DNA from: Komagataeibacter xylinus NBRC 15237
Lineage (GTDB): Bacteria > Pseudomonadota > Alphaproteobacteria > Acetobacterales > Acetobacteraceae
Direction: 5' to 3'
Length of the DNA stretch: 55,414 bases
Assembly (NCBI RefSeq): GCF_001571345.1
Contig: NZ_BCTP01000020.1
Location: forward strand, 1-55,414
Each line of letters opens with the position of its first letter. Within the stretch, counting starts at the first letter, position 1. Shown one piece after another: positions 1,481 through 46,472 of the stretch. The position numbers were made by a program, and so were the translations under genes. The notes under the pieces are model-generated. The model made no database searches and was not told where the DNA came from. It saw only the letters and a list, made by a program, of their open reading frames with translations.

Positions 1481-1556
1481 AAGCTTCCGGGTGCCGTTTT
1501 TTTTTCAGAAAGACGGTGTTCTTCGAAGCTTTTTGAAAAAAAACTTCCTTATGATT
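1481..1556 (+). repeat. Dispersed structured repeat, copy 1
   Basis: First of nine copies of an approximately 80-bp intergenic repeat (core: GGGTGCCG, T-rich arm, A-rich arm, then GAAGCTTTTTGAAAAAA and ACTTCCTTATG). Here the first hairpin is degenerate (GCCGT / ACGGT arms around a T/A run) and the second keeps GAAGCTTTTTGAAAAA. It lies in the 314-base gap between the porin and the symporter, in the porin's orientation. The remainder of the gap (1557-1754) is comparatively AT-rich leader sequence in which I see no ORF and no clear operator. Confidence 0.8.
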
Positions 1557-1754
1557 GCCGGATGTTTTCAAGAACCAAAAGGCGGAAACATGCATGACCT
1601 GATTTATGCTGTATCGCCCTGTCGTAGTATTTGTGTTTCAATCTCTTTTTTTAATAAACTCTGACAATGAATTGATGGCGTCCAGCACGGCTTGCCGTTT
1701 TACAGCGACATGATAGCGTACGGCTGGACCTGAAATTTCCGGAAAAGCAGGATA

Positions 1755-3059
1755 ATGCAGAACAGGCAGGCGCTTTTGGTAAAAGAAAAGATGGCCTATG
1801 GCTGCGGTGATGCCGCCTCCAACATGATGTGGGGCATGACGTCATCCTACCTGATGTATTATTATACGGACATATATGGGCTGCCGCTGCTTGCCGTATC
1901 ATGGATATTGCTGGTGGCCCGTGTTGTCGATGCCTTCTGCGATCCAGCCATCGGCTACATTGTTGACCGCATGGGCGGCATGATCATACCGCGCCTGATC
2001 CGCCTGCTTGCCATTCCCTTTGGCCTGACGGGCTTCCTGTGCTTTCTGGCCCTGCCGCTTTCGCCCACGGGGAAAGTGGTGTGGGCTGGCACGACCTATA
2101 TCGTGTTTGGCGCCATCTATTCGTGCATCAACACGCCTTATGGTGCGCTGGCGGTTATGATGAGCCGCTCCGCCACGGGGCGCGTTGGCCTTAATGCCTT
2201 CCGCATGATGGGTTGCCAGGCGGGATCGCTGCTTGTGGCGCTGCTCACCATTCCCGCCATCACCTGGCTCGGTGGGGGCGAGAGTGCGGCGCAGCACCGC
2301 TATGGCATGGCGGTTTATGTGCTGGCGCTGTCCGTTCTGTGCAGCTTTTTATGGCTGTGCGTGGCGCGTGGCTGCACCATACGGCATGCACCGGCACCCG
2401 TCCGCCAGAACCCTATGGTCACGCTGCGCCATCTTTGTGCAAACCGGCACTGGGTGCTGAGCAACCTGCTCGCATTCTTTTACTTCGTGGGGCAGGCGGC
2501 CCTGTTCGGCTTTGTTCTGTATTACGCCCGCGTCATTCTGGGTGGCACGGAGCAACTGGGCGCCAATATCATTACCTTCATTACTGTCCTGCTGTTTGCG
2601 GGCGTGCCCGCGTGCCTTCCGCTTGCAAGACGTATGGGGACTGCGCGCAGCGGGATCATATGCCTGATGGCACAGGGAGCCGCCTATCTGATGATGGCTG
2701 TGGCAGGTGCGTCCATGACGGGTTTTGTCCTGTCCGTAGCGCTTCTGGCGCTGGCGCAGGGCGTGATGTCTCCACTGTATTACACCTTGCTGGCGGAAGC
2801 CGTGGATGATGGTGATCCGCGCACCTCGACCGGGGCGGCCGGCCTGGCGTATTCGATCAACACATGGGTTACGAAACTGGCGATGGGGCTGACCGGCTTT
2901 GTTCTGGCACAGTTCCTGTCACAGGGCCATTACATCGAGGGTGGACTTGCGCAGCCCCCGGAACTGTCCGCATGGATTATGGCAGGATTTGTGTGGCTGC
3001 CACTGGGCGCGGTCTGCATGCAGGCGCTGTGCCTTCTGGCATGGCGCGGCAGGGCATGA
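1755..3059 (+). CDS. GPH-family (MFS_2) sugar:cation symporter
   Basis: A 434-residue inner-membrane transporter of the glycoside-pentoside-hexuronide family (MelB/YicJ-like), expected to import a sugar or glycoside with a cation. The family signature is at the N terminus: KEKMAYGCGDAASNMMWG followed by SYLMYYYTDIYG. A second typical segment, DPAIGYIVDRM, is in the first cytoplasmic loop region, and about twelve hydrophobic segments can be counted. The ATG at 1755 is used; an internal ATG at 1791 (MAYGCG) would remove the conserved KEK motif and is less likely. The gene sits between two repeat copies with the porin upstream, so a porin-symporter pair for the same sugar is plausible but not shown. 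Substrate cannot be told from the sequence. Confidence 0.82.
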   Translation: MQNRQALLVKEKMAYGCGDAASNMMWGMTSSYLMYYYTDIYGLPLLAVSWILLVARVVDAFCDPAIGYIVDRMGGMIIPRLIRLLAIPFGLTGFLCFLALPLSPTGKVVWAGTTYIVFGAIYSCINTPYGALAVMMSRSATGRVGLNAFRMMGCQAGSLLVALLTIPAITWLGGGESAAQHRYGMAVYVLALSVLCSFLWLCVARGCTIRHAPAPVRQNPMVTLRHLCANRHWVLSNLLAFFYFVGQAALFGFVLYYARVILGGTEQLGANIITFITVLLFAGVPACLPLARRMGTARSGIICLMAQGAAYLMMAVAGASMTGFVLSVALLALAQGVMSPLYYTLLAEAVDDGDPRTSTGAAGLAYSINTWVTKLAMGLTGFVLAQFLSQGHYIEGGLAQPPELSAWIMAGFVWLPLGAVCMQALCLLAWRGRA

Positions 3060-3086
3060 CCATCATGTCGGCGCTGTAACTGAAGG

Positions 3087-3102
3087 AGGCCTGATCAGGC
3101 CT
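3087..3102. terminator. 16-bp perfect palindrome after the symporter
   Basis: AGGCCTGATCAGGCCT lies 28 bases after the symporter stop. It can form a hairpin but no T run follows, so it is at best a weak or factor-assisted terminator; it could also be an operator. The stretch 3103-3191 holds nothing I recognise. Confidence 0.35.
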
Positions 3103-3191
3103 GCCCGGTCAGGTGCGCGCACAAACAGACAGGTGGCACGCGCCCGGGCAGCATGCCCTCCGGTTTGTCGTGGCAGGATCAGGTTGAGCAT

Positions 3192-3380
3192 TCAGCCCGT
3201 ATTTGACTTGAGCAATTTGAATCCCTTCCAGAAAACTTCGACTTTCTTGCCGAAGGTCAGGCGGACTTCGGTCGGAGGCTCGATGCGGAAAGGGAAGCCG
3301 GGCGTGATCCACGCGATGCGATGTGCTTCGTCCTGTATTTCACAACCACACCGCAGTAATGATCCGCGGATATTAGCCAT
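3192..3380 (-). CDS. Small ORF downstream of the alcohol dehydrogenase, unrecognised
   Basis: A possible 62-residue protein beginning MANIRGSLLRCG and ending KGFKLLKSNTG. The ATG at 3380 lies 21 bases after the dehydrogenase stop and has an AGGCGG ribosome-site-like sequence upstream, so it could be the last gene of that transcript. The C-terminal half (FPFRIEPPTEVRLTFGKK) reads more like real protein than random shadow sequence, with mixed charged and hydrophobic residues. I do not recognise a family. It may instead be the remnant of a longer gene, since other reading frames in 3109-3493 also contain short open stretches. Confidence 0.3.
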   Translation of the reverse strand: MANIRGSLLRCGCEIQDEAHRIAWITPGFPFRIEPPTEVRLTFGKKVEVFWKGFKLLKSNTG

Positions 3381-3401
3381 ATGCCGTTCCGCCTGGCATC
3401 C

Positions 3402-4592
3402 TCACTGGCTGCCTCCATGTGGATAAAACACCACCTTGATGCAGTCATCCTTCTTGTCGCGGAATTTTTCATATAAAGCAGGCCCCTCCTCAAGATTGGC
3501 GGAGCGGTGGCTGATCACGAAGGAAGGGTCGATTTCCCCGTTCTGGATACGCTCAAGCAGCGGCTGGAGGTATTTCTGGGCATTGGTCTGGCCCGTGCGC
3601 AGGGTCAGGCCCTTGTTCATCAATAGCCCGATCATGACCGGCCCGAGCGCGCCTGCGTAAACGCCGGGCATCGACACGATGCCGCCGGGCCTGCAGCCCA
3701 GAATGGCCTGGTTGAGCGCAAAGGGCCGCTCGAGCGTAGTAACCGAGAGCAGGGCCGAGCCGACCTTCTGCATCATGGTATCTGCGCCATGCGCTTCCAT
3801 GCCCACGGCCTCGATCACCGCATCCGGCCCCAGCCCGTGGGTCATTGCAACGAGGGTTTCCTGAATATTTTCAGTGCTGAAATCAATTGTCTCAGCTCCG
3901 GCAGCCTGCGCCATGGCCAGCCGCTCGGGCACCTGATCTATGGCGATGACCCGTTTGGCTCCAAGCAGGAAGCATGAGCGGATCGCCATCTGCCCCACCG
4001 GGCCGCAGCCCCATATGGCGATGGTCTTTTCAGCCTCGGGCGTGATATCGCACTGTTCGGCGGCCTGATAACCGGTGGGGAAAATATCGGACAGGAAAAG
4101 AACCTGATCATCACTCAGCCCTTCGGGCACGATGATTGGCCCGACATCCGCATGCGGCACCCGCAGGTATTCCGCCTGCCCACCGGGAAAACCACCCGTA
4201 ACGTGCGAATAGCCAAACAGCCCCGCCAGCGGGTAGCCAAATGTCTCGGCCTGCTGGCGGCCATTGGGGTTGGTGCGCTCGCAGCAACTCCAGTTACCCC
4301 ACTTGCATTGCCGGCACGCCCCGCACGAGATGGTAAAGGGCACCACAACCCGGTCGCCTACCGTAAGGCGGGTGTTGTCGCGCCCCACCTCCACCACCTC
4401 GCCCATGGTTTCGTGGCCGAGAATATCGCCGCACTGCATGGTGGGCATCATGCCATCCATCAGATGCAGGTCGGAGCCACAGATGGCGCAGGCAGTTACT
4501 TTGATGATGGCGTCATGCCCATCCATAATGACAGGATCAGGCACGCTTTCGCAGGTGATCTTGCCCTTTTTCTGCCAGGTCAGTGCTTTCAT
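3402..4592 (-). CDS. Zinc-dependent alcohol dehydrogenase (formaldehyde-dehydrogenase-like MDR)
   Basis: A 396-residue medium-chain dehydrogenase/reductase, expected to oxidise an alcohol or aldehyde with NAD(P)+. Catalytic zinc ligands are visible in [13 protein letters not shown] and [12 protein letters not shown]; the structural zinc cluster is [15 protein letters not shown]; the nucleotide-binding loop is [13 protein letters not shown]. The long substrate-side insertion ([25 protein letters not shown]) and [11 protein letters not shown] resemble the glutathione-independent formaldehyde dehydrogenase-like branch. The ATG at 4592 has AGGAC nine bases upstream. It stands alone between a repeat copy upstream and a small ORF downstream. 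Substrate is unknown. Confidence 0.85.
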
Positions 4593-4703
4593 GGGAAAAC
4601 GTCCTGCTTGAGGGGGATATCAGGCAGACGCATGGCGGGCGGTATGGTTTGCTGGCCTGCTCCAGAAAAGCGCTCCGCTTCCAGAATAATCATGATGAAG
4701 AGC

Positions 4704-4786
4704 AGAAGTTCCTGGGTGCCGTTCTTCTTCAAAAAGGCGGCGTTCTTTGAAGATTTTTGAAAAAAGCTTCACCAAAAACTTTTATT
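4704..4786 (+). repeat. Dispersed structured repeat, copy 2
   Basis: Copy with outer arms AAGTTCCTGGGTG and CACCAAAAACTT, first hairpin partly decayed (GCCG / GGCGGC), second hairpin partly decayed. It sits between the ABC ATPase stop and the dehydrogenase start; the TAA stop of the ATPase (4782-4784) lies inside the repeat edge. It is in the reverse sense relative to the upstream gene. Confidence 0.8.
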
Positions 4787-5522
4787 CCTGGATGCTGGTT
4801 TCGCGTGGGGCGTAAAGCCGTTCCAGCATGGAAGGCTCAAGCACATCGGCCGCAGGCCCATCGGCCATGATCCGCCCCTGTCGCAGCGCAATGGCGCGGT
4901 CAAACACGCGGGCAGCGGCAAGCGGGTCATGCGTGGTGGCCACGATGGCGTGGCCCTGCGTGGCAAGCTTTTGCAGCAGGGCGTAAAGCCGCTGCTTCTG
5001 CCCGTAATCCAGCCCGGTTTCCGGCTCATCGAGAATGAGCGTGCGCGCCCCCTGCGCCAGCGCGCGGGCCAGCAGGGCTGCCTGCCGCTCCCCGCCCGAA
5101 AGTTCGGTATAGGGCCGGTCCGCCAGATGGATGATGCCCAGCGCATGCAGGGCGTGCGTCACCTCATCGCGGTCATGGCGGTGCAGGCCAGGCGCAAAGG
5201 GCGTTTCCGCCAGGCGGCCCATGCCCACGATGTCACGCACGCTGTAGGGAAACAGCGGCACATGCCCCTGCGGCACATAGGCAATACGCCGCGCCACCTC
5301 GCGCCGGGACCACGCCTGCATGGGCTGTCCCTCCAGCAGAACCTGCCCTGCCCCCGGTCGCGCCAGCCCCAGCAGCAGGCGCAAGAGCGTGGTCTTGCCC
5401 GCGCCGTTATGGCCAAGCAGCGCGGTCATCTCCCCTGCCCTGATGCCAAACGAAAGATCGTGCAGCACAATGCGCCCGGCATGACTGAAACTGACATGAT
5501 CCATGCACAGCACGACACTCAT
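4782..5522 (-). CDS. ABC transporter ATP-binding protein, FecE/BtuD-like
   Basis: A 246-residue ATPase that powers the metal-complex importer encoded just upstream. Walker A is GHNGAGKTT, the Q-loop is YVPQGH, the signature is ELSGGERQAALLARAL, Walker B is LILDEPETGLD, and the switch histidine is in ATTHDP. The start at 5522 is chosen because its ATGA overlaps the permease TGA, the usual coupling in this type of operon; an in-frame start 9 bases earlier is possible. The domain order and the partner permease place it in the iron-siderophore/cobalamin/heme importer group. The cargo is not evident. Confidence 0.86.
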   Translation of the reverse strand: MSVVLCMDHVSFSHAGRIVLHDLSFGIRAGEMTALLGHNGAGKTTLLRLLLGLARPGAGQVLLEGQPMQAWSRREVARRIAYVPQGHVPLFPYSVRDIVGMGRLAETPFAPGLHRHDRDEVTHALHALGIIHLADRPYTELSGGERQAALLARALAQGARTLILDEPETGLDYGQKQRLYALLQKLATQGHAIVATTHDPLAAARVFDRAIALRQGRIMADGPAADVLEPSMLERLYAPRETSIQE

Positions 5523-6541
5523 GCCCGCCACCCCCGCCGCAGCAGCGGCAGCACGGCCACGAACAGCGCCACACCGAGCAGGTCGGCAATCAGGCCCACG
5601 GGAATTTCCTCAACTGAAAGCGTGCGCGCCAGATCATCGCACACCAGCAGGAACATGCCGCCAAGGCAGGCACTCGTGGGCAGTACGCGCATGTTGCACG
5701 GCCCCACCAGCAGCCTTGCCACATGCGGCACCACCAGCCCCACCCAGCCAATCATGCCTGCAACCGAGACCGTGAGCGCTGCCAGCACTGTCGCCGCGCC
5801 AATTACGCCATAGCGCAGCGCCACGACCGGAATGCCCAGCGTGCGGGCCTCCTCATCGCCCATGGCCAGGCCATCGAGCATGCGCCCACACGCGCTGAGC
5901 AGCACGATGCCCACCACAACCGGCCCCACCATCACGCCCAGCGCGCGCGGCGTGACCTGCGTGAGGCTGCCCAGCAGCCAGAACACGATGTCAGGCAACT
6001 GGTTCTGCGGGTCAGCCACGTATTTGAGCAACGACAGCAGCGCCGTGAACAGCGCCGAACTGATCAGCCCGCCAAAGACCAGCATCAGCATCGACGCGGC
6101 ATCAAACAGATGCGCCACCCCCACGCCACAGGCCACCGCCAGCAGCCCGCCAAGAAAGGACAACCCCCCAACACCCGCAGGCCCAAGCCCCCACACAATG
6201 CCCAGTGCCGCCCCGGTGCCCGCCCCGGCCAGCACGCCCAGCAGGCCGGGCGAGACCAGCGGATTGCGAAACACCGCCTGATACGCCGCCCCCGCCACCG
6301 AAAGCGCCGCCCCCACGCAAAGCGCGCCGCCAATGCGCGGCAGGCGCGCGCCAAACACCACGCTATGCACCATATGCGCCTGTGGCGTATCGGCGCTGGC
6401 CACCAGCCCCAGGCTTGCGGCCAGCGCGTGCAGCACCTGCGCGGGCTGCACCGCAAAGCGCCCGATACAGGCCGAGAAAACCGCAAGCCCCACCAGCACG
6501 ATGGTCGCCAGGGCTGCAATCATCAGCCTGCGCAGCCTCAA
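5519..6541 (-). CDS. ABC transporter permease, FecCD family
   Basis: A 340-residue integral membrane permease of the FecCD/BtuC family, with about ten hydrophobic segments. Characteristic stretches are FGARLPRIGGALCVGAALSV, the NPLVSPGLLGVLAGAGTGA segment and GWVGLVVPHVARLLVGP near the ATPase-coupling loop. A TTG start at 6541 overlaps the upstream TGA (TTGA) and preserves coupling; an ATG at 6523 is the alternative. Together with the binding protein and ATPase it forms a complete three-gene importer. No TonB-dependent receptor is adjacent. Confidence 0.85.
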   Translation of the reverse strand: MRLRRLMIAALATIVLVGLAVFSACIGRFAVQPAQVLHALAASLGLVASADTPQAHMVHSVVFGARLPRIGGALCVGAALSVAGAAYQAVFRNPLVSPGLLGVLAGAGTGAALGIVWGLGPAGVGGLSFLGGLLAVACGVGVAHLFDAASMLMLVFGGLISSALFTALLSLLKYVADPQNQLPDIVFWLLGSLTQVTPRALGVMVGPVVVGIVLLSACGRMLDGLAMGDEEARTLGIPVVALRYGVIGAATVLAALTVSVAGMIGWVGLVVPHVARLLVGPCNMRVLPTSACLGGMFLLVCDDLARTLSVEEIPVGLIADLLGVALFVAVLPLLRRGWRA

Positions 6542-7693: not shown

Positions 7694-7780
7694 CATAAGG
7701 AGGTTTTGGGTAAAGCTTTTTTCAAAAAGCTAAAAAAATGCCGCCTTTTTTCAAAAAAGGCGGCACCCGAAAACTTTTAC
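7694..7780 (-). repeat. Dispersed structured repeat, copy 3 (also gcvP terminator)
   Basis: One of the best-preserved copies. On the minus strand it reads GGGTGCC, then a 12-bp perfect stem (GCCGCCTTTTTT / AAAAAAGGCGGC) followed by a run of seven T, then a second stem AGCTTTTT / AAAAAGCT. It begins 18 bases after the gcvP stop, so the first stem and T run should act as the intrinsic terminator of gcvTHP. Confidence 0.85.
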
Positions 7781-7798: not shown

Positions 7799-10693
7799 TC
7801 AGGCCTCGTAAGTGCTCATATCGGGGCAGGAGCAGATCAGGTTGCGATCGCCATAGGCATTGTCCAGCCGGTTGACGGGCGACCAGTATTTGCTCGCCGG
7901 ATGCACCGCACCGGGCAGGCAGGCGCTCGCGCGGTCATAGGCCCGCGCCCAGTCGGGATCGGTCAGGTCGCGCACGGTGTGTGGCGCGTGGCGCAGGGGG
8001 CTTTCCTCAATGGTGAGTTCGCCTGCCGCAACCGCGCTGATTTCCTTGCGGATGGCAATCATCGCATCACAGAACCGGTCCAGTTCGGCCCGGCTTTCGG
8101 ACTCGGTCGGCTCGATCATGAACGTGCCCGCAACCGGAAAGCTGACCGTGGGCGCATGGAAGCCATGGTCAACCAGCCGCTTGGCAATGTCATCGACCGT
8201 CACCCCCGTCTCGTCCTTGAGCGGACGCAGGTCGATGATGCATTCATGCGCAACACGGCCATTGGCCCCCTGATACAGCACCGGGTAATGGGCCGCGAGG
8301 CGGGTGGCGATGTAATTGGAGTTCAGGATCGCGACCTCGGTGGCGCGTTTCAGCCCGGCATCCCCCATCATGACCATGTACATCCACGAAATGGGCAGCA
8401 CATCCGCCGAGCCGAAGGGCGCTGCCGAAATGGCGTTGGCCCCGCCATCCTGCGGCGCACCCGGCAGGTAGGGGGCCAGATGCGCCCCCACCCCGATCGG
8501 CCCCATGCCGGGGCCACCACCGCCATGGGGAATGCAGAAGGTCTTGTGCAGGTTGAAGTGGCTGACATCGCCGCCATACACGCCCGGCTGCGCAAGGCCC
8601 ACCTGCGCGTTGAGGTTCGCGCCATCAACGTAAACCTGCCCGCCCGCAGCGTGCACCAGTTCGCAGATCTCGCGCACGTTTTCCTCGAACACGCCGTGGG
8701 TCGAGGGATAGGTGATCATGATCGCGGCCAGCGCATCGGCGTGCTTCGCGATCCTGGCTTTCAGGTCTTCAATATCGACATTGCCGTTGCTGTCGCACGC
8801 CACCACCACCACCTTCATGCCCGCCATCTGGGCGGAAGCCGGGTTGGTGCCATGGGCGGAAGCCGGAATGAGGCACACATCACGCCCCATGTCGCCGCGT
8901 GCGCGGTGGTAGCCACGAATGGCCATCAGCCCCGCAAACTCGCCCTGTGCGCCCGAGTTGGGCTGGAGCGACACCGCCGCATAACCGCTGATCTGGCACA
9001 GCATGCGCTCCAGATCAGTGAACAGGCGGGCATAGCCGCGCACCTGGTCGGCTGGCGCGAAGGGATGGATATTGCAGAATTCAGGCCACGTGATCGGCAG
9101 CATCTCCGCCGTGGCATTGAGCTTCATGGTGCACGAGCCCAGCGGGATCATGGAGCGGTCAAGCGCAAGGTCACGGTCGGCGAGGCGGCGCATGTAGCGC
9201 AGCATGTCGGTTTCCGACTGGCAGGCCGAGAAGATCGGCTGGGCCAGAAGTTCACCCGTGCGCACGAGGCCTTCGGGGATGGTGCTGCCTGCGGCGGAAA
9301 GCCCGGCCTCGACCTGTGCTACGCGGGCCGCATCGCCACTGACAGCCGCCCATATGGCGCGCACCGTGTCCGGCGTGGTGGTTTCATCAAGGCTGATGCC
9401 CACATGGGCGGCATCGACCCGGCGCAGGTTCATGCCCGCATCGAGCGCACGCCCTATTACCGCATCGGTCTGCACGCCGGTGTTGACGGTGATGGTATCA
9501 AAGAACGCCTGCGTCACCACCTCGGCGCCCAGCGCGCGCAGCCCTGCGGCAAGGATGGTGGTGAGTTTGTGGATGCGCGTGGCAATGGCCTTCAGCCCCA
9601 CCGGCCCATGATACAGCGCATACATGGAGGACACGATGGCGGGCAGCGCCTGCGCCGTGCAGATGTTCGAGGTCGCCTTCTCGCGGCGGATATGCTGCTC
9701 GCGCGTCTGGAGCGCCAGACGGTAGGCAGGCTTGCCGCGTGCATCGATGGACACGCCCACGATGCGGCCGGGAATGTTGCGGCGGAAGGCATCGCGCACC
9801 GCCATATAGGCCGCATGCGGGCCACCGGCTCCCATGGGCATGCCGTAGCGCTGCATGGAGCCCACCGCAATATCGGCCCCCAATGCGCCGGGGCTTTGCA
9901 GCAGCATCAGCGCCAGCGGGTCGGCGCACAGGGCGGCGATGGCACCGGCGGCATGCAGCTTTTCAATCCACGCGCGCGGGTCGCGCAGTTCACCCGTCGA
10001 GCCGGGATACTGGAACACCGCGCCAAACACCGCCTGCGCATCAAGGTCGGTGGCAGGGTCGCCCACCACAACCTGCCAGCCCAGCGGCTCGGCGCGGGTG
10101 CGGATGACGGCGATGGTCTGCGGGTGGCAGGCGGCATCGACAAAGAAGGCGCTGGCCTTGCTTTTGGCCACGCGGCGGGCCATGGCCATGGCCTCGGCGG
10201 CGGCGGTGCCTTCATCGAGCAGCGAGGCATTGGCCACGTCCAGCCCGGTCAGTTCGATCACCAGCGTCTGGAAATTGAGCAGCGCTTCAAGCCGCCCCTG
10301 GCTGATCTCGGGCTGGTAGGGCGTATAGGCGGTGTACCACGCCGGGTTCTCCAGCACGTTGCGCTGGATCACGCCGGGCAGGATGGTGTCGTAATAGCCC
10401 TGGCCGATCAGCGAGGTCAGCACCCGGTTCTCGCTTGCCATGCCGCGCAGCCGGGCCAGCGCCACATGCTCGGGCACGCCCGCGCCAAGGCCCATGGCGC
10501 CATCAAGGCGGATGGAACCGGGCACGGTCTGGGCCATCAGGGTGTCGAGCGTATCCGCCCCCACCACGCGCAGCATGGCCGCCACGTCATGTGCATCGGG
10601 GCCAACATGCCGGGCGCAGAACGCCCCGGCATCATCGCCCGTATCTTGCCACAGGGAAGAAGAACCGCAGGAAGAAGACGTCACGGCCAGCAT
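7799..10693 (-). CDS. gcvP: Glycine dehydrogenase (decarboxylating), P-protein
   Basis: P-protein of the glycine cleavage system: decarboxylates glycine and passes the aminomethyl group to lipoyl-GcvH. At about 964 residues it is the fused form (both halves in one chain). Visible motifs are the substrate-pocket region [16 protein letters not shown] in the N-terminal half and the PLP-binding lysine in [16 protein letters not shown] followed by GMGPIGV in the C-terminal half; [10 protein letters not shown] is near the end. The start is uncertain: ATG at 10693 is used, but an in-frame TTG at 10732 would overlap the gcvH stop and might give coupled translation. Last gene of gcvT-gcvH-gcvP, followed by a repeat copy acting as terminator. 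Confidence 0.95.
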
Positions 10694-10724
10694 ACTCCGT
10701 AAAAGGTGGGAACGAGGGGGAAAA

Positions 10725-11090
10725 TCAGCCAACCAGCGCGGTGTAGGTGGCGTGGTCCATCAGCCCTTCAAGCTGGGTGGCGTCGGCCACGGTCATGCGC
10801 ACGATCCAGCCTTCGCCCTCGGGGTCGCGGTTGATGAGGGCCGCGTCATCGGTCAGCGCATCATTGAAGGCCAGCACATCGCCCGTGACGGGGGCATAGA
10901 TGTCGGATGCCGCCTTGACGGATTCGACCACCGCCACGCTGTCGCCCTGCTCCACGGTCGTGCCGGGGTCACGCGCTTCGGAGAACACGATCTCGCCGAG
11001 TTCGTTGGCCGCATGCGCCGTAATGCCGACCACGGCCACATTGCCTTCAACGCGCAGCCACTCATGTTCCTTGGTGTAATAGACGGTCAT
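10725..11090 (-). CDS. gcvH: Glycine cleavage system H protein
   Basis: The 121-residue lipoyl carrier shuttling the aminomethyl group from GcvP to GcvT. The lipoylation lysine is in [15 protein letters not shown] (about residue 60), and HEWLRVEGN near the N terminus and the [12 protein letters not shown] stretch are typical. The ATG at 11090 is preceded by AAGGAAG at good spacing; the reading frame is open further upstream but that part is overlap with gcvT's other frame. Middle gene of the gcv operon. Confidence 0.96.
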
Positions 11091-12437: not shown

Positions 12438-12606
12438 CCAAGTGCCCCTTCTGTCGCATGTGCCTGAGATCGCTATCCCGTCGGCGGGCATCCGGGTTAC
12501 GGATACCTCTTTCCAGAAGTCTTGGCCGACCGGTCCTTTGGCCTGAGAGTTTCCGGGGCGGTTGCTCCTTCGGCGCTGGCGCAGGGCCAGTCTCTCCCGT
12601 GTCGAC
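12438..12606 (-). ncRNA. Tandem glycine riboswitch of the gcvTHP operon
   Basis: Two glycine aptamers in series. Aptamer 1 shows GGGAGAGACT, GCCGAAGGAGCAA and CTCTCAGGCCAAAGGACCG; aptamer 2 shows CTGGAAAGAG, GCCGACGGGA, ATCTCAGGCACA and GACAGAAGGGGC. These match the known consensus and are joined by the short linker typical of the cooperative form. A small hairpin (GAATCC / GGATTC, 12422-12438) follows immediately and ends about 10 bases before the AGGAG of the small ORF, so the expression platform probably acts on translation. Glycine is expected to turn the operon on. Confidence 0.92.
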
Positions 12607-12611
12607 GAAGC

Positions 12612-25794: not shown

Positions 25795-25820
25795 TCGCCT
25801 CATACCGCGCTGATCAAAAT

Positions 25821-25900
25821 AAAACTTCTCAGGTGCCGCCTTTTTTCAAAAAAGGCGGCATTCTTTTTGGAAGTTTTTTGAGAAAATATTTACCAGAACT
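25821..25900 (+). repeat. Dispersed structured repeat, copy 4 (also eda terminator)
   Basis: Starts 26 bases after the eda stop in the same direction. The first stem is a perfect 12 bp (GCCGCCTTTTTT / AAAAAAGGCGGC) followed by ATTCTTTTT; the second stem is decayed. Likely serves as the edd-eda terminator. Confidence 0.82.
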
Positions 25901-26000
25901 GTCCGTAACTTAAATAACCGCCAACAATTCACTTCTGCCCTCGCCTTTCGGGCCATGACGTCATAGGGTCATGACTGTTACACAAGGGAGCAGACCCGTT

Positions 26001-27030: not shown

Positions 27031-27077
27031 GCCCTGTCTCCCCCCTGTGCCTGGCCGCGAACCGTAAGCGACTGTCT

Positions 27078-27160
27078 GGTTCCGGGTGCCGCCAGCATTC
27101 AAAAAAGCAGCGTTCTCCGAAGCTTTTTGAAAAAAGCTTCACCAAAAACTTCCTTATGAT
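27078..27160 (+). repeat. Dispersed structured repeat, copy 5
   Basis: Lies in the divergent gap between alkB and the 85-residue ORF. The second stem is perfect (GAAGCTTTTT / AAAAAGCTTC), the outer arms are kept (CCGGGTGCC, CACCAAAAACTTCC), but the first stem is decayed. It is the only copy between two divergent start codons. Confidence 0.82.
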
Positions 27161-31724: not shown

Positions 31725-31744
31725 AAAGACTTTAAAAAACAGAC

Positions 31745-31823
31745 ATTTCTGGGTGCCGCCTTTTTTCAAAAAGGCGGCATTTTTTTTAAGCTTCTTGAAA
31801 AAAGCTTCACCAGAAACTTTTGT
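31745..31823 (+). repeat. Dispersed structured repeat, copy 6 (also glyQS terminator)
   Basis: Starts 20 bases after glyS in its direction and ends 12 bases before the DUF3293 stop. Outer arms TTTCTGGGTG / CACCAGAAA pair with one bulge; first stem GCCGCCTTTTT / AAAAAGGCGGC is followed by an eight-T run; second stem AAGCTT.. / ..AAGCTT is kept. It is the clearest copy for showing the three-stem plan. Confidence 0.87.
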
Positions 31824-38349: not shown

Positions 38350-38922
38350 ATGAAGACTTCATCGCCCCGCATGACCCCTCGCCCGGCACTCCTGCTTGCG
38401 GCGACACTGTGCCTCGGCCTTGGCGCATGCGAGGACACGCGCGACCCCGGCCAGCGCGCCATTGGCGGCGGGCTGCTTGGCGCAGGCGGCGGCGCGCTGA
38501 TCGGGGGGCTGGCGGGCGGCGGCCAGGGTGCCGCCATTGGCGCGCTGGCCGGTGCGGCGGGTGGCGCTGCCATTGGCGCCGCCACCACGCCGCGCAACCG
38601 CCCCCGTGGCGAGGCCCCTTCCACCGTGTGCGCGGGCGGCCGGGTCCTGCCGCCGGGCTACGGACCGCAGAGCTGCCCCGAAGCGGCGGGCCAGCGCGCG
38701 GGCTACGCAAACCAGCGCGGCTACGCCACCCCCAGCTACCCCCAGCAGGGCGGCTATGGACAGGGCGCGTATGGCCAGAGCGGGTATGGTCAGGGTGGGT
38801 ATGGTCAGGGTGGATACAGCCAGGGCGGATATGACCAGAGCGGCTATTACGGCCAGCAGCAGGGTGGCTACGGGCAGGAAGGCAGCTACCCGCAGGGCTA
38901 CGAAGGCGAAAGCGGCTACTGA
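38350..38922 (+). CDS. Glycine-zipper lipoprotein with Gly-Tyr-Gln repeats
   Basis: A 190-residue predicted lipoprotein. The signal peptide ends with a lipobox-like LGLGAC (Cys about residue 27). A glycine-zipper domain follows (IGGGLLGAGGGALIGGLAGG, then GAAIGALAGAAGGAAIGA), typical of outer-membrane-associated helix pairs. After a cysteine-containing linker (VCAGGRVLPPGYGPQSC) the C terminus consists of degenerate GYGQ/GGYGQG repeats (about residues 135-190). The role is unknown; similar proteins stabilise envelopes or form amyloid-like structures. No ribosome site is outstanding. Confidence 0.75.
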   Translation: MKTSSPRMTPRPALLLAATLCLGLGACEDTRDPGQRAIGGGLLGAGGGALIGGLAGGGQGAAIGALAGAAGGAAIGAATTPRNRPRGEAPSTVCAGGRVLPPGYGPQSCPEAAGQRAGYANQRGYATPSYPQQGGYGQGAYGQSGYGQGGYGQGGYSQGGYDQSGYYGQQQGGYGQEGSYPQGYEGESGY

Positions 38923-38977: not shown

Positions 38978-39032
38978 ATCTGGTGCCGCCTTTACTTGAA
39001 CAAAGCAGCATTTTTAGTGCAGCTTTTCTTGA
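38978..39032 (+). repeat. Dispersed structured repeat, copy 9 (degenerate)
   Basis: The most decayed copy: TCTGGTGCCGCC, a broken first stem (CTTTACTTGAACAAAGCAGC) and AGCTTTTCTTGA. It lies between the convergent lipoprotein and leuA genes and abuts the leuA stop. Confidence 0.55.
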
Positions 39033-39033
39033 C

Positions 39034-40709: not shown

Positions 40710-40754
40710 CCCCTGGGCGCGCCGGCACGCAGGCCGGCCCTGATCGCTCAGGGG
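40710..40754 (-). promoter_or_regulatory. Candidate leuA attenuator hairpins
   Basis: Two mutually exclusive structures can form around the stop codon of the leader peptide: a short one, CCCTGA-GCGA-TCAGGG on the minus strand (40738-40753), and a long one pairing CCCCTG (40749-40754) with CAGGGG (40710-40715), which encloses GCCGGC / GCCGGC (40721-40738). This is the usual layout for ribosome-position control, but no T run follows, so the mechanism might act on Rho or on translation rather than by a classical terminator. Confidence 0.45.
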
Positions 40755-40858
40755 CGGATAAGTCGAAGACGAAGGAGCCCCGTCGCGGCACATGCGCGCG
40801 CGGAAAGGCGCGCGTATGCGCCCGATCCGATCCCCACGATATGCGCTGTCGTTACCAT
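40748..40858 (-). CDS. Candidate leucine-rich leader peptide of leuA (leuL-like)
   Basis: A 36-residue ORF 139 bases upstream of leuA ending with LLRLRLIRP: four leucines and an isoleucine among the last nine codons, followed directly by the attenuator hairpins. It starts MVTTAHIVGIGSG. It has no strong ribosome site, but a promoter candidate places transcription start at or within one base of the ATG, so it may be a leaderless leader peptide, as known for other alphaproteobacterial leader peptides. The density of leucine codons just before paired hairpins is strong circumstantial evidence. Confidence 0.6.
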   Translation of the reverse strand: MVTTAHIVGIGSGAYARLSARACAATGLLRLRLIRP

Positions 40859-40865
40859 GCCGGGC

Positions 40866-40893
40866 ACAATACAGCCCCGCAACGTGATTGCAA
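40866..40893 (-). promoter_or_regulatory. Candidate promoter of the leuA leader
   Basis: On the minus strand: -35 TTGCAA (40888-40893), 16-base spacer, -10 TATTGT (40866-40871). Expected start about 7 bases later, i.e. 40858-40859, matching the A of the leader-peptide ATG at 40858. Confidence 0.45.
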
Positions 40894-40906
40894 CCCGAAA
40901 AGCGCC

Positions 40907-41875
40907 CTAGCCCGTGGCATGGGTGACCATGCTGTCAGTGGCGAAATAGCGGTCGATGGCCTGCACCATGGCCCCTGCCACCACCATGCGGTGCGCGGCC
41001 TGCCGCAGGGCCGCTTCATCCATGTGGTTGGACATGAAGCCCATCTCGACAAGCACGGAGGGGATGTCCGCCGATTTCAGCACCACGAAGGAGGCATGCC
41101 GCGAGGGATGCTGCAACAGCCCGATGCGCGGGCGGAAGGAAGTGACGATGCTGCTGGCCATGTGGGCGGCGCCATGGCGGGTTTCCTCGGTCACGAGGCT
41201 TGCGAGGATTTCCTGCACCTCGGGCGAATCCGCATGCACGTGCGGGCCGCCATAGCGGTCGGCGCTGTTCTCGGTGCGGGCCAGCATGGCGGTCTGGCGG
41301 TCCGACGCCTTTGAGGACAGCGTATAGACACTGGCCCCGCGCACGGCGCGGTTGGTCAGGGCATCGGCGTGCATGGAAATGAACAGCGATGCCTTGTGGC
41401 TGTGCGCGATATCCACCCTACCCTCGAGCGGGATAAAGCGGTCATCGGCTCGCGTCATGGCCACGCGGTAGCGGCCACTGGCCTCGAGCTGGCGTTGCAG
41501 CTCGCTGGCAGCCGCTTCGGCCACATGCTTCTCATACGTGCCGGAAATGCCGATGGCGCCAGGGTCCTTGCCACCATGGCCGGGGTCGAGCATGACCAGC
41601 GGCTTTGGCGGCGCCGCCCGGCCCACAATGGCGGGCGCGTGCAGCGGGTGGGCGGCGTGATGGGCTGCGGCGGGCGCGTGCAGCGGGTGGGCGGCGTGAT
41701 GGGCTGCGGCGGCCGCATGCACATGAGCCGGCACATGCGGGGCCGGCACCCCCGCAAGCGCGCTGCCGGGCAGCAGCACACCCAGCCCCGCCACAACAGC
41801 GCGGCGCGGCAGCACGGGGCCAGACGTGCGTGCTGTCAGGCCCGCCTTGTTTCCATCAGGCCAGCCAGTGGTCAT
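40907..41875 (-). CDS. N-acetylmuramoyl-L-alanine amidase (Amidase_3)
   Basis: A 322-residue zinc amidase that trims peptide stems from peptidoglycan, likely in the periplasm. The N terminus has a twin-arginine-like signal (PRRAVVAGLGVLLPGSALA) ending around residue 42. A His/Ala/Pro-rich linker made of two perfect 13-residue repeats follows. The Amidase_3 domain has the zinc ligands in VMLDPGHGGKDPGAIG, SLFISMHADALTN and the catalytic Glu in VLVEMGFMSN. An AmiC-like role in cell separation is plausible. It is upstream of leuA and divergent from rne. Confidence 0.88.
   Translation of the reverse strand: MTTGWPDGNKAGLTARTSGPVLPRRAVVAGLGVLLPGSALAGVPAPHVPAHVHAAAAAHHAAHPLHAPAAAHHAAHPLHAPAIVGRAAPPKPLVMLDPGHGGKDPGAIGISGTYEKHVAEAAASELQRQLEASGRYRVAMTRADDRFIPLEGRVDIAHSHKASLFISMHADALTNRAVRGASVYTLSSKASDRQTAMLARTENSADRYGGPHVHADSPEVQEILASLVTEETRHGAAHMASSIVTSFRPRIGLLQHPSRHASFVVLKSADIPSVLVEMGFMSNHMDEAALRQAAHRMVVAGAMVQAIDRYFATDSMVTHATG
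41630..41707 (-). repeat. 39-bp perfect tandem duplication in the amidase linker
   Basis: Two identical 39-bp units (41630-41668, 41669-41707), each coding for 13 residues of His/Ala/Pro-rich linker (AHHAAHPLHAPAA). Perfect identity implies recent expansion or ongoing slippage; the frame is kept. Confidence 0.85.
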
Positions 41876-42541
41876 GCATCAGGTTCCGGTGAAAACGGTT
41901 GCGGGTTCATGTGTCCCTTCCCCTTACCACCATCCACGCCCTTCGTCAGCGGGATAAACGCAAGCCCCTTGCAGGAAAGCCCGCATTGCGCCATGCTGCC
42001 CAGCCGTGATGGACCGCGCCCGGTCTGGCTGCCCCGCTGGCATGCCTGATAGGGCGAAATGCCAGCAGGCATGACTTAAAAACTCCATCCGGCATGCATC
42101 ATGCATGCGCGACATGCGCTTACCGGTATGCTTACCGGCCACGTTACGGCGTGGGGGCACATGCCACGCACGACCTGAGGCAGCCGCGCCGGTGTTCCCC
42201 ATCGACAGGAAACCGGATGGCATACCAGTCGATACGGAAGGTTCCGCCCCGGCAATCAGGCCGGGCCGCGCCCTCCCCAGCCAGGACAGAGGATGGATTG
42301 GATACCACGCGGACCTTTTCCGCATATGCGATGACACCATGCGCGAATACGGGCGGCACACGCATGCCGCATCCGGTCGCACCGCATGGCCTGTCCGCCC
42401 GCGCAGGGCGCGGTGGTCTCCTGTCCGGTTTCAGTCACGGCTTTTTCAATCATGCTTTTGTCCGCTCCCCCGCCCCTCCTGCCGCCACGACTCGCGCGCA
42501 GCCCGGATGCCGGAGCGTGACACACCGGAGTGCGCCTATTT
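41876..42541. other. 666-base region between the amidase and rne; probable long rne leader
   Basis: No convincing gene. It holds a perfect 17-bp palindrome GCATGCAT-C-ATGCATGC (42092-42108) and a direct repeat of GCTTACCGG at 42118-42126 and 42130-42138 (12-bp spacing). rne is often autoregulated through its 5' UTR in other proteobacteria, so a long untranslated leader here is credible. Short open frames in it have atypical composition and no ribosome sites. Confidence 0.5.
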
Positions 42542-45475
42542 ATGAGCAAACGCATGCTGATCGACACGACCCACGCGGAAGAAACCCGCGTGGTCGTGAT
42601 GGATGGTAACCACCTTGAGGATTATGATGTCGAAGCCGCTTCCAAGAAGCAGCTCAAGGGCAACATCTACCTTGCCAAGGTTATCCGAGTAGAACCCAGC
42701 CTCCAGGCTGCGTTCGTGGATTATGGCGGCAACCGCCACGGCTTTCTCGCCTTCAGCGAAATCCACCCCGATTATTACCAGATCCCCGTAGCCGACCGCG
42801 AAAAGCTGCTCGCGCTGCAGGAGGAGGAACGCCGCGCGGAAGAAGAACGCCGCGCGCGTGATGACGAGGAAGACGACGCCCCCCGCGCCGAGGACGAAGC
42901 CGAAACCCCCGCGGGCGAGGAAGGCGACGAGCCTGAAACCGTGGGCGGCGAGAACGATACCGGTGACGAGGCCCAGGCCCAGCGCCGCATCGCCCGCTTC
43001 CTGCGCAACTACAAGATTCAGGAAGTCATCCGCCGCCGCCAGATCCTGCTCGTGCAGGTGGTCAAGGAAGAGCGCGGCAACAAGGGTGCTGCGCTGACCA
43101 CCTACGTGTCGCTTGCCGGGCGCTACTGCGTGCTCATGCCCAACTCGCTGCGCGGGGGCGGTGTTTCGCGCAAGATCACCTCGGTGGCCGACCGCCGCCG
43201 CCTGCGCGACATCATTACCGAGCTGTCAATCCCACGCGGCATGGCCATGATCGTGCGCACCGCTGGCGCCCAGCGCCCGCGCGCCGAGATCATGCGCGAT
43301 TGCGAATACCTGCTGCGCCTGTGGGATGATATCCGCCAGCACACGCTGGAATCCGTCGCCCCCGCCCTGATCTATGAGGAAGCGAGCCTGATCAAGCGCG
43401 CCATCCGCGATATCTACACGCGCGAGGTGAGCGAGATCCTGATCGATGGCGAGCCGGGCTGGAAGTCCGCGCGCGAGTTCATGCGCATGCTCATGCCCCA
43501 GAACGCCCAGAAGGTGCGCCTGTGGCAGGACCACGAGCAGACCCTGTTCTCGCACTACAAGGTGGAGGGGCTGCTCGATTCCATGCTCTCGCCGTCCGTG
43601 CAGCTCAAGTCGGGTGGCTACCTGGTCATCAACCAGACCGAGGCGCTGGTTGCGATCGACGTGAACTCGGGCCGCGCCACGCGTGAGCGCAACATCGAGG
43701 AAACGGCGCTGCGCACCAACCTCGAAGCCGCCGAGGAAGTCGCCCGCCAGCTCCGCCTGCGTGACCTTGCCGGGCTGATCGTGATCGACTTCATCGACAT
43801 GGAAAGCCGCAAGCATAACGGCATGGTCGAGCGCAAGCTCAAGGATGCGCTGCGTACCGACCGCGCGCGCATCCAGGTGGGCCAGATCTCGCATTTCGGC
43901 CTGCTGGAAATGTCGCGCCAGCGCCTGCGCCCCTCCATTGCCGAATCCGCCTTCATGCCCTGCCCGCACTGCCAGGGCACCGGCATCGTGCGCGGGATCG
44001 AAAGCTCGTCGCTGCACGTGCTGCGCGCGATCGAGGACGAGGGCATGCAGCGCAAGGCCGCAGAAATTGCCGTGCAGGTCGCGCCCGAGGTTGCCTTCTA
44101 CATCCTCAACAACAAGCGCGCCTGGCTTTCGGAAATCGAGACGCGGCACAAGATGCAGGTCGTGTTCGCGCCTGATGCCACGCTCCAGCCGCCCGAGTGC
44201 AAGATCGAGCGCGTGCGCCAGCAGACAGCCCGCTTCGAGGCGCCTGCCGCCATCGCGCATGCCCCGGCTGAAAACAGCACCGTGCGCGAGATCCAGATCC
44301 AGGCCGAGCCGCCGGTAGCCGAAGCAACCCCGGAAGCCCCGGCCAGCACGGAAGAGGACGAGGATATCGCCTCGGGCACCGACCACCGTCGTCGCCGTCG
44401 CCGTCGTCGTCGCCGTGGTTCCGCTGCCACCACGCCCGAGCAGACGGCCGAGACGCCGCAGGCCCCCGCAGCCGAGGAACCGGCCCCCGTGCCTGCCCCC
44501 GCGCGCGAAGCCTATCGCGGCCCCACCCCGGCTGACCCGTATGGCGACCCGATCATCGACATCTTTGACGTGATCGAGCAGACCACGGCGCCTGCCGAGA
44601 TCGTGGAAGAGGTTGTGGAAGCCGAGCCCGCTGTCGTCGCCGTAACGGAGGAAGAGGAAGCGCCCAAGCCGCGCCGCCGCCGCCGCACGCGCCGCCGCAC
44701 CCCGGTTGAAACGGAAGCCACCCCCGAGGCCCCGCAGGCCGGGGCGGAAGCCGAAGTGAACGCGCCGGTGGCCGAAGCCCCGGTGGTGGAAGCCGAAGCC
44801 GCACCCGCCGAGCCGGTTGTGGCAGCCCCGGCGGAACCCGTGGAGGAAGCGCCCAAGCCGCGCCGCCGCCGCGCCAGCACGGCCACCGCCACGCGCAGCC
44901 GCCGCACCAAGGCCCCCGCCAGCACGCCGGAAGAAACCCCGGCCGAGGCCGTGGCGCCCAGCGCTGCGGAAGAGGCGGCCCCTGCCGAGGAAGCCGCACC
45001 CGCCAAACCCGCGCGCAAGCGGGCGGCCAGCCGGAGCACGGGCACGACGACGGCCACCACGCGCCGCCGCACTACCCGCAAGACGGCTGCCAAGGCGGAT
45101 GAGGCCACCGAGGCTGCGGCTGAAGCGCCCGTAAAAGCGAAAGCCGAAGCAGAAGCCCCGGCTGTGGAAGAGGCCCCCAAGCGCCGCCGTGCCCCGGCAC
45201 GCCGCAAGAAGGCCGAGCCTGCCGCCACCGAGGCCACGCAAGCCCCGGCGGAAGTGGTAGCCGAGACGGCGGAAGCCGCACCGGCCAAGCCCGCGCCGCG
45301 CAAGCGCGCCACGACCCGCAAGGCCACTACCACCACGGCCACGGCCACCCGCACGCGCCGCCGCAAGAAGGCGGAAGACGCAGCGGAACCGGCTACGGAC
45401 GAGGCAGCTTCATCTGCCGCGCCGACCGAAGCGGAAGCGACACCCCGCCGCCGCACGGGCTGGTGGAAGCGCTAA
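42542..45475 (+). CDS. rne: Ribonuclease E (RNase E/G family)
   Basis: A 977-residue endoribonuclease that starts mRNA decay and processes rRNA/tRNA. The N-terminal S1 domain (KGNIYLAKVIRVEPSLQAAF) is interrupted by a long acidic insertion of about 55 residues (around residues 90-145). The catalytic core shows GRATRERNIEETALRTNLEA with metal-binding Asp in VAIDVNSG and VIDFIDM; the zinc-link is CPHCQGTG (about residue 473). The C-terminal half is disordered, with Arg-rich blocks (HRRRRRRRRR-like, KPRRRRRTRRR) and many Ala-Glu-Pro repeats, the usual scaffold for a degradosome. ATG at 42542 follows an upstream GTG of no benefit. Confidence 0.95.
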   Translation: MSKRMLIDTTHAEETRVVVMDGNHLEDYDVEAASKKQLKGNIYLAKVIRVEPSLQAAFVDYGGNRHGFLAFSEIHPDYYQIPVADREKLLALQEEERRAEEERRARDDEEDDAPRAEDEAETPAGEEGDEPETVGGENDTGDEAQAQRRIARFLRNYKIQEVIRRRQILLVQVVKEERGNKGAALTTYVSLAGRYCVLMPNSLRGGGVSRKITSVADRRRLRDIITELSIPRGMAMIVRTAGAQRPRAEIMRDCEYLLRLWDDIRQHTLESVAPALIYEEASLIKRAIRDIYTREVSEILIDGEPGWKSAREFMRMLMPQNAQKVRLWQDHEQTLFSHYKVEGLLDSMLSPSVQLKSGGYLVINQTEALVAIDVNSGRATRERNIEETALRTNLEAAEEVARQLRLRDLAGLIVIDFIDMESRKHNGMVERKLKDALRTDRARIQVGQISHFGLLEMSRQRLRPSIAESAFMPCPHCQGTGIVRGIESSSLHVLRAIEDEGMQRKAAEIAVQVAPEVAFYILNNKRAWLSEIETRHKMQVVFAPDATLQPPECKIERVRQQTARFEAPAAIAHAPAENSTVREIQIQAEPPVAEATPEAPASTEEDEDIASGTDHRRRRRRRRRRGSAATTPEQTAETPQAPAAEEPAPVPAPAREAYRGPTPADPYGDPIIDIFDVIEQTTAPAEIVEEVVEAEPAVVAVTEEEEAPKPRRRRRTRRRTPVETEATPEAPQAGAEAEVNAPVAEAPVVEAEAAPAEPVVAAPAEPVEEAPKPRRRRASTATATRSRRTKAPASTPEETPAEAVAPSAAEEAAPAEEAAPAKPARKRAASRSTGTTTATTRRRTTRKTAAKADEATEAAAEAPVKAKAEAEAPAVEEAPKRRRAPARRKKAEPAATEATQAPAEVVAETAEAAPAKPAPRKRATTRKATTTTATATRTRRRKKAEDAAEPATDEAASSAAPTEAEATPRRRTGWWKR

Positions 45476-45498
45476 TTACGGCGTGACTGACCAAGTAG

Positions 45499-45533
45499 AA
45501 AACCTGCCTTCGCAAGAAGGCAGGTTTTTTATT
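45499..45533 (+). terminator. Intrinsic terminator of rne
   Basis: Perfect 12-bp stem AAAACCTGCCTT / AAGGCAGGTTTT with loop CGCAAG, then further T. Starts 23 bases after the rne stop. Confidence 0.93.
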
Positions 45534-45553
45534 GCCCGAATGAATTCTGTTTT

Positions 45554-45640
45554 CATCAAAATGTTTTGGTAAAACTTTTTCAAAAACCCTCGAAAGAACG
45601 CCGTCTTTTTGAAAAAAGGCAGCACCCAGAAACTTTTGTT
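45554..45640 (-). repeat. Dispersed structured repeat, copy 7
   Basis: Reverse-oriented copy between rne and the DUF1963 gene: outer arms, GGGTGCTGCCTTTTTT, GGGTTTTTGAAAAAG. First stem has partly decayed (GCTGCC / GACGGC). The downstream DUF1963 gene is then closed by copy 8 in the opposite sense. Confidence 0.78.
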
Positions 45641-45708
45641 ATTTTATTATTGATGCACAATAACCACATTTCTGTAGAAACTATACAAGTTAAAGGACTG
45701 GAATAACC

Positions 45709-46389
45709 ATGACCCCAGCCGCCCGCAAATGCCTTGACCAGCTACGCACCCTGCTGCGCCCGGCGTCAGTCGCAACCGCAGGCGGCTTCCGCCCGCCATC
45801 CGACCCGGCCACGTCATGGTTCTGCCGGGCCGTAGGCCAGCCGGGTGAAAGCCTGCCACAATGGAACGGCAGGCCCATGATCCCGATCCTGCAGATCCGT
45901 ATTGATGAACTGCCTTACGTGCCAGAACAACTGGCCCAGCTGGCGCTGATCGTCGTGTTTTTCGACATGGAGGATCTGCCCTTGGACAGGCCGCATGGCG
46001 AGGGCTGGCTGATCCGTGAATATACGTCCACCGACGGCCTCGTGCCGCTGCCCCAAGCCGAGCAGGCCTTCAAACCCTTGCCCATACGCTGGACGCGCAT
46101 TGAGGACGACGCTCCCGGCTGGGAAGATGCCTGGTCCCTGCCGATCAACATGGATGCCCTCGTTGCCGACGATGCAGGAAGCGATGCTTTCTCTGATAAT
46201 TTCGAGTGCCATGACCAGACCAAGGTAGGCGGCTACCCGGCTGATATACAGGGGGCGGTTGGCCTTGAGGACTTCATGTTCCAGATCAATTCGGAAGACA
46301 GGGTAGGCCTGATCTGGGGCGCCAGCGGAATGGCCTATTTCTTCCGGCTACCTGATGGGACGTGGCGCTGGTCATGCCAGTTTGATTGA
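45709..46389 (+). CDS. DUF1963 (YwqG-like) family protein
   Basis: A 226-residue cytosolic protein. DUF1963 features are the middle segment QLALIVVFFDMEDLPLD, the KVGGYPADIQ motif and the C-terminal MFQINSEDRVGLIWGASGMA followed by YFFRLPDG. Molecular role is not established to my knowledge; some members occur near toxin-immunity loci. The gene lies between inverted repeat copies 7 and 8 with no operon partner, suggesting an accessory gene. ATG at 45709 preceded by AAAGGACTGGAATAACC. Confidence 0.78.
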   Translation: MTPAARKCLDQLRTLLRPASVATAGGFRPPSDPATSWFCRAVGQPGESLPQWNGRPMIPILQIRIDELPYVPEQLAQLALIVVFFDMEDLPLDRPHGEGWLIREYTSTDGLVPLPQAEQAFKPLPIRWTRIEDDAPGWEDAWSLPINMDALVADDAGSDAFSDNFECHDQTKVGGYPADIQGAVGLEDFMFQINSEDRVGLIWGASGMAYFFRLPDGTWRWSCQFD

Positions 46390-46398
46390 CGGACACGC

Positions 46399-46472
46399 GA
46401 CTACCTTTTTTCAAAAAAGGTAGCGTTTTTCGAAGCTTTTTGAAAAAATCTTCACCAAAAACTTCCTTATGA
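46399..46472 (+). repeat. Dispersed structured repeat, copy 8 (arm-covarying)
   Basis: The first stem has CTACCTTTTTT / AAAAAAGGTAG instead of GCCGCC / GGCGGC, so both arms changed together; a T run follows (GTTTTT). The second stem GAAGCTTTTTGAAAAAATCTTC is nearly intact. Begins 9 bases after the DUF1963 stop and touches the HerA-like gene stop (46473). Confidence 0.85.

Follow-up and report, generated by a model that had tools for sequence, protein, structure and literature searches.

What are the short, structured repeats that recur behind genes in one stretch of the Komagataeibacter xylinus NBRC 15237 genome? The stretch (contig NZ_BCTP01000020.1, 55,414 nucleotides, hereafter the window) holds nine copies of what an original prediction described as an unrecognised intergenic repeat of about 80 bp with the plan of a three-way junction. 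We found that this unit is the core of an element of ~162 bp bounded by terminal inverted repeats (TIRs), and we consider it probable that the element is a two-way terminator borne by a miniature inverted-repeat transposable element (MITE) and since partly domesticated. The evidence comes from sequence comparison and consists of the TIRs, a TNA target, an empty site, the distribution of copies among genomes and genes, insertions at stop codons and differential hairpin conservation at two sites. The prediction thus described correctly a structured, multi-copy, intergenic repeat at gene 3' ends in Komagataeibacter and its kin, and missed that it is a TIR-bearing, TNA-targeting MITE.

Ends, target and spread of the element

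When copies were aligned with long flanks, similarity extended past the core to an outer inverted repeat, GAGACTGTTTGAAAA ... TTTTCAAACAGTCTC, so that the predicted ~80-bp limits are too short. At up to 2 mismatches, the TIR GAGACTGTTTGAAAA occurs at 117 sites in the K. xylinus genome, compared with 3 for the reversed control. Paired TIRs lie 150-165 bp apart in 11 of 30 loci. Among the 112 placed copies, 12 still show both TIRs at ≤4 mismatches, the loss of TIRs being partly ascertainment because copies were found via the core. One further TIR pair, ~138 bp apart (L051:2039-2176), encloses no recognisable core and possibly carries other cargo between the same ends.

The flanks point to a duplicated TNA target. 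Of the 46 alignment rows printed, which cover 42 distinct places, 8 have an identical TNA triplet at each end. Of 85 distinct TIR ends, 60 have TNA immediately beyond them, versus 4.8% of intergenic triplets; these ends were drawn from own-genome loci partly chosen for TIRs or cores, with the two ends of one element counted twice. An empty site is available as well: plasmid p1 of Novacetimonas hansenii carries a full copy where pGXY010 of K. medellinensis, 98% identical around it, has none, and the two differ in length by 165 bp, which is 162 bp plus a 3-bp duplication. The left triplet there is TAG and the right TAA, and one later change is therefore assumed. Short (~162 bp), non-coding and high in copy number, the element is, judged by its TIRs, target duplication and empty site, a MITE.

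Insertion sequences (ISs) encoding an IS5-type transposase with PF13340 (relatives of the L064 protein) are present in the own genome, in congeners and in G096. They end in GAGCCTGTTTG[GA]AAA and are flanked by TNA-like triplets, and the MITE TIR is like these ends at 13-14 of 15 positions. A TNA target is a trait of the IS1031 group. In ends and target the MITE would thus appear IS5-type, resembling the IS5 family; its parent IS we infer, because the loci examined contained none with identical ends.

Detection rested on a covariance model, R1, trained on 40 aligned own-genome copies with the three-way structure. A full-model scan of the window matched 8 of the nine copies (55.9-84.7 bits, E 1.9e-14 to 2e-23), scores that are partly by construction because all 8 are among the 40 training sequences. 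Independently of R1, an unsupervised, model-free repeat search covered all nine places jointly with families D1, D2 and D8, so that the nine predicted copies are real. The place absent from the R1 list up to E = 1 (38978-39032, in a convergent gap) belongs to D2, with 71% identity over 49 nt, and is a relic.

At least 150 matches lie in the own genome, a lower bound because all 150 candidates scored (of 2298) matched, at non-repeating places. A sample of 61 stretches (1,255,414 bases, window included) holds 117 places of ≥45 bits, of which the 55-kb window contributes 8, a 400-kb set 25 and an 800-kb set 84; the dense spacing noticed in the window is borne out, as it exceeds that in the remaining sample, with the proviso that stretches were picked at round coordinates with the match list already seen, which may bias the density. 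Extrapolation gives roughly 200-400 copies per genome.

The covariance-model search that the prediction had proposed found matches in all 18 congeners tested (45 to at least 150 each) and none in the two Gluconacetobacter genomes tried. Under stricter, family-wide filters, 24 of 120 genomes match, the own genome and two congeners among them. Novacetimonas maltaceti has at least 150 matches and K. intermedius TF2, whose glyS protein is 91% identical to that of the window, has 113. Acidocella aromatica (G167; 45 matches, up to 96 bits) and Gluconobacter sp. P1C6_b (G154; 6 matches, up to 106 bits) show a strong but patchy presence, making horizontal arrival possible. These other-genome figures are matches, not copies, and one place may count on both strands. 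There were no matches in 16 other named genomes (including the two Gluconacetobacter, four Acetobacter, one Neokomagataea and one Belnapia), in 12 genomes of other families of the Alphaproteobacteria or, at E 1e-5, among 50,697 phage records. With no match in those 12 genomes and at least 150 in the own genome, neither outcome that the prediction named as contrary to it came about. At the element places no Rfam family scored as high as its gathering threshold, and we rejected membership of a known Rfam family.

Gene boundaries and stop codons

Genes were taken from a home-made codon-score caller, leaving out those that scored <12; before gaps were counted, calls that were weak (<25) and had >30% overlap with an element were removed as well. 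Five of the 117 matches lay at stretch ends and were excluded, and matches below 45 bits were not counted. Of the 112 placed copies, convergent gaps hold 66, tandem gaps 42 and divergent gaps 4, versus 12.7, 65.7 and 33.6 expected by length. Among gaps of ≥20 bp, a copy is present in 65/134 convergent, 42/507 tandem and 4/151 divergent ones (convergent against the other 46/658, Fisher odds 12.5, p 2e-28). Occupancy of convergent gaps was steady over three sets of stretches (18/37, 20/39 and 25/52) and stood at 2/6 in the window. Tandem copies lie a median of 16 nt past the upstream stop, and 38 of the 42 are nearer to that stop than to the next start. A regularly spaced 400-kb sample of the congener G018 (matches ≥33 bits, 1 of 20 outside gaps) gave 10 convergent, 7 tandem and 2 divergent copies versus 2.5, 10.6 and 5.9 expected, with 10 of 38 convergent gaps occupied.

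The element also enters stop codons themselves. Sixty of the 85 TIR ends face a neighbour's stop and 25 its start; among those 60, 14 have the TIR immediately next to the stop codon (8 TAA, 6 TGA, 0 TAG), and a count over the long stretches with looser TIRs yielded 9 of 37. Both TAA and TGA fit TNA, so duplication of the target can restore the stop. In an annotated case, the aldo/keto reductase gene of K. nataicola pKNA07 (RefSeq), the TAA stop is the left target copy, and TAA stands on the right too. TAA is used at 63 of 174 stops facing a copy versus 187 of 905 other stops (p 2e-5).

Hairpins at the window sites and competing readings

The window copies, six of which lie in sense, as predicted, within about 60 bases 3' of the preceding gene's stop (those at 1481, 7694, 25821, 31745, 38978 and 46399), are as follows.

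1441..1568 (+): copy 1; R1 match 1477-1568, 55.9 bits, core 1477-1547; left TIR 1441-1455 (+, 1 mismatch; the one clear TIR left in the window) directly after the TAA of the OprB gene (gene end 1440); hairpin 2 mostly deleted, 1/9 pairs left
4702..4782 (+): copy 2, 81.2 bits; antisense, at the stop of an ATP-binding cassette (ABC) transporter gene (- strand, low end 4782)
7700..7780 (-): copy 3, 82.2 bits; sense, 18 nt past a gcvP-type gene (- strand, low end 7799)
25819..25903 (+): copy 4, 60.2 bits; sense, 3' of a 2-keto-3-deoxy-6-phosphogluconate (KDPG) aldolase (eda-type) gene, stop 25794; hairpin 1 then ATTCTTTT, terminator-like scan match 25832-25862
27072..27152 (+): copy 5, 61.2 bits; upstream of an AlkB-like gene (2-oxoglutarate-Fe(II), 2OG-FeII, oxygenase; - strand); hairpin 1 decayed
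31739..31820 (+): copy 6, 84.7 bits; sense, between convergent glyS (+, stop 31724) and a DUF3293 gene (-); hairpin 1 then ATTTTTTT, terminator-like scan match 31751-31782
38978..39032 (+): copy 7, hairpin 1 relic; convergent gap between a glycine-zipper gene (+) and a LeuA-type gene (-)
45559..45639 (-): copy 8, 70.6 bits; antisense, between an RNase E/G gene (+, end 45475) and a DUF1963 gene (+)
46374..46465 (+): copy 9, 56.1 bits; between the convergent DUF1963 gene (+, end 46389) and an ATPase gene (-, low end 46473); hairpin 1 stem CTACC/GGTAG, pairing intact

The copies predicted at 4704 and 45554 each come after the 3' end of a gene and run antisense to it. Between copy 5 (27078) and the called start of the AlkB-like gene, upstream of which it lies, there are ~41 nt, and at the place of this copy the relative G018 (L245) has a TIR after TAA. 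The R1 match of copy 9 starts within the DUF1963 gene, the repeat proper from ~46399.

Two of these sites suggest that one hairpin is retained while the rest decays. At the 3' end of glyS, a copy is present in 15 of 18 congeners (G001, G013 and G017 have 30-33 bp instead) and absent from Novacetimonas maltaceti, G096 and two Gluconacetobacter. At the 3' end of eda (11 congener loci and K. intermedius), a copy in the window direction is present in 8; of the rest, one is broken by an IS, one has no copy, and one plus K. intermedius carry an element in the opposite direction. Across the 25 orthologous copies (16 glyS and 9 eda, own included; the copy-less glyS sites L258-L261 are excluded, as are the eda loci L270, whose copy is IS-broken, L271, which is copy-less, and L272 and L180, whose copies point the other way), pairing is kept at 0.98 in the gene-proximal hairpin 1 versus 0.68 in hairpin 2. 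In 20 of the 25 copies, 5-7 of the 8 nt that follow hairpin 1 are T, often as ATTCTTTT or ATTTTTTT (the exceptions are L254, L264, L265, L267 and L268), while the family consensus there is GTTCTTCG, with 4 T in 8 nt; the extra T is found in the glyS copies and in 5 of 9 eda copies. Anatomy, context and this differential conservation make a two-way terminator likely.

Both sites also show rearrangements. The glyS 3' gap in L255-L257 (G009, G014 and G002) holds two adjoining elements in opposite directions within one convergent gap, and in the eda 3' gap of L270 (G012) hairpin 1 is interrupted by an apparent IS end (GGGCCTGTTGGGAATT).

We propose that a resident transposase of IS5-family type would move the MITE in trans, and that the element would enter a TAA or TGA stop codon as its TNA target, the duplicated target restoring the stop. 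Insertions at 3' ends would be harmless for that reason, whereas those between promoter and gene or within operons would be lost because the element would stop transcription. Insertions behind genes, chiefly between convergent genes, would persist, and some could become the gene's terminator; the gene-proximal hairpin and T-run would then be retained as the TIRs and the other hairpin decay. IS5-type mobilisation, termination itself and selection as the cause are the steps that we infer.

A broader version, in which the MITE is a mobile terminator cassette, we advance only tentatively, at somewhat less than even chances. By exploiting the IS5-type TNA target, it would enter TAA or TGA harmlessly and bring a two-way terminator to gene ends, a quarter to half of convergent boundaries in the genomes sampled would derive from one transposon family, and the hairpin-pair module would be older than the transposon ends. 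That last part draws on other Acetobacteraceae (G048, G128, G134, G080 and G034), in which R1 detects a shorter relative, AAAAGTTTTTTG-hairpin-hairpin-CAAAAAACTTTT, with different stems whose pairing is kept (CTTC/GAAG, GTTC/GAAC, TCCC/GGGA and TTTC/GAAA); the copies printed show no recognisable TIRs. Because of these shorter paired-stem relatives, the hairpin pair seems older than its transposon ends, which it would have acquired by descent or capture. At the end of locus L159 (G013), a normal copy stands beside a second, different half-unit (AATAAAAGTTTTTTGGTTCTTTTTTTCAAAAAAGAAC) of the type found in other genera; two related repeat types thus coexist in one congener.

Several observations weigh against a partly domesticated, MITE-borne terminator. 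The loci examined yielded no intact IS whose ends are exactly GAGACTG. Tandem copies show no clear orientation bias (24 sense, 18 antisense), though a two-way terminator needs none. In other genera there is no convergent excess (6 convergent, 25 tandem and 2 divergent versus 4.1, 24.0 and 4.8 expected, from matches ≥26 bits on stretches chosen for holding matches, 9 of 42 lying outside gaps and overlapping called genes). The p of 2e-5 for the glyS and eda copies is too small because the 25 orthologues are related, and of the three sites compared across species the third (27078) lacks hairpin retention. Within the 42 tandem copies, retention of the proximal over the distal hairpin is weak (p 0.03), the sense-antisense contrast in retention gives p 0.067, and sense copies do not exceed antisense ones in T-content after hairpin 1 (p 0.12; the hairpin table behind this comparison omits one of the 112 placed copies). 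Finally, covariation among the 40 own-genome paralogues was no better than in shuffles.

The last result bears on the proposed three-way junction. Five copies were folded, four of them window copies: three adopt the three-way plan on both strands, far better than shuffles do (z -3.8 to -6.8), and the copies at 4702 and 45559 fold no better than shuffles (z +0.2 to -1.2). The fold plan therefore stands for part of the copies, while its conservation as RNA is not supported. A trans-acting or ligand-binding RNA with a functional junction could draw on those three folds, but given the lack of covariation, the lack of any Rfam assignment and the several copies without one hairpin, we disfavour it and give it hardly any credence. 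A stabiliser or processing element of mRNA 3' ends, blocking 3' exonucleases as repetitive extragenic palindromic (REP) sequences do, is rather improbable: the strong double stem close past stop codons and the many copies with only the short T-tract of the consensus would suit it, but the near-complete lack of copies in divergent gaps, and in tandem gaps far from stops, better fits polarity by termination, and so does the added T at glyS and part of the eda copies.

A purely selfish, functionless MITE, found behind genes since it is harmless there and with core retention due to age and detection bias, is unlikely. In its favour, the pneumococcal SPRITE, RUP, BOX and IS elements are over-represented between convergent genes, and the authors of PMC3049150 read this as marking tolerated parasites. 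Sites are not all shared, as the 3 of 18 congeners without a glyS copy attest, and core-based detection accounts for part of the TIR loss. Genus-wide retention of hairpin 1 and its T-run at two sites while the rest decays, and a copy in nearly half of the convergent gaps counted, argue against it. REP sequences paired as bacterial interspersed mosaic elements (BIMEs), two inverted palindromic units moved by a REP-associated tyrosine transposase (RAYT), would account for the near-symmetrical inverted half-units and for the half-units that occur singly and the pairs that combine different hairpins, modular in the REP/BIME manner, in other Acetobacteraceae genera (L380:3473, L378:17495, L387:10269 and L382:10510). 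No RAYT gene (PF01797) was found in the genomes of these four loci, the own genome, four congeners, G096, G048, G134, G080 or G128 (2 of 30 genomes were positive), neither a GTAG nor a CGTC tag was seen by eye at the ends of the printed consensus, and IS5-type TIRs with a TNA duplication are present instead; we rejected RAYT-driven REP/BIME and regard it as highly improbable.

Elsewhere in the window, a glycine riboswitch aptamer (12522-12609, -; Rfam RF00504, 63.4 bits) lies near, and on the same strand as, the gene block with the gcvP-type gene (7799-10732, -). A 39-bp unit occurs as two identical adjoining copies at 41630-41707 (D19), and a tandem repeat of 15 bp (D3) lies at 38746-38847 within the glycine-zipper gene.

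Relation to known repeats

Should the domesticated-terminator reading hold, the ends of transcripts throughout a genus used industrially to make cellulose would have been rewired by a single transposon family, by way of a target triplet that is itself a stop codon, a simple and damage-avoiding route. Annotators would gain a missing element class and Komagataeibacter engineers natural two-way terminators, and the passage from selfish repeats to gene boundaries would become testable by comparing filled with empty sites. No prior description of this repeat was recognised in the open-access literature searched, subscription papers lying outside its scope, which is weak evidence of absence.

The element is like MITEs of the IS5 family (IS1031-type) in its TIR, close to the ends of PF13340 ISs, and in its TNA target; it differs in its structured double hairpin and in that the loci examined held no parent IS with identical ends. 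REP/BIME sequences, which are GTAG- or CGTC-tagged, are characterised in PMC3733652 as palindromic intergenic hairpins, some in inverted pairs, and thought to affect termination or mRNA stability. The present element shares the palindromic intergenic hairpins, but is longer, has TIRs and a target duplication and lacks both the end tag and, in the own genome and the congeners tested, a RAYT.

The nearest known kind appears to be the pneumococcal SPRITE, a likeness of kind and not a membership by sequence. According to PMC3049150, SPRITE is MITE-like, resembles an intrinsic terminator and is enriched between convergent genes and near 3' ends (15/30). Terminator likeness and convergent enrichment are common to both. 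SPRITE has 30 copies and one hairpin, whereas the present element has at least 150 copies and two hairpins, belongs to another phylum, inserts at stop codons, has its 15-bp TIRs and TNA duplication resolved, and occupies from a quarter (G018) to half (own genome) of convergent gaps. Relative to that account of SPRITE, the insertion into stop codons, the resolved ends, the two-hairpin plan and the extent of convergent-gap occupancy are the new parts.

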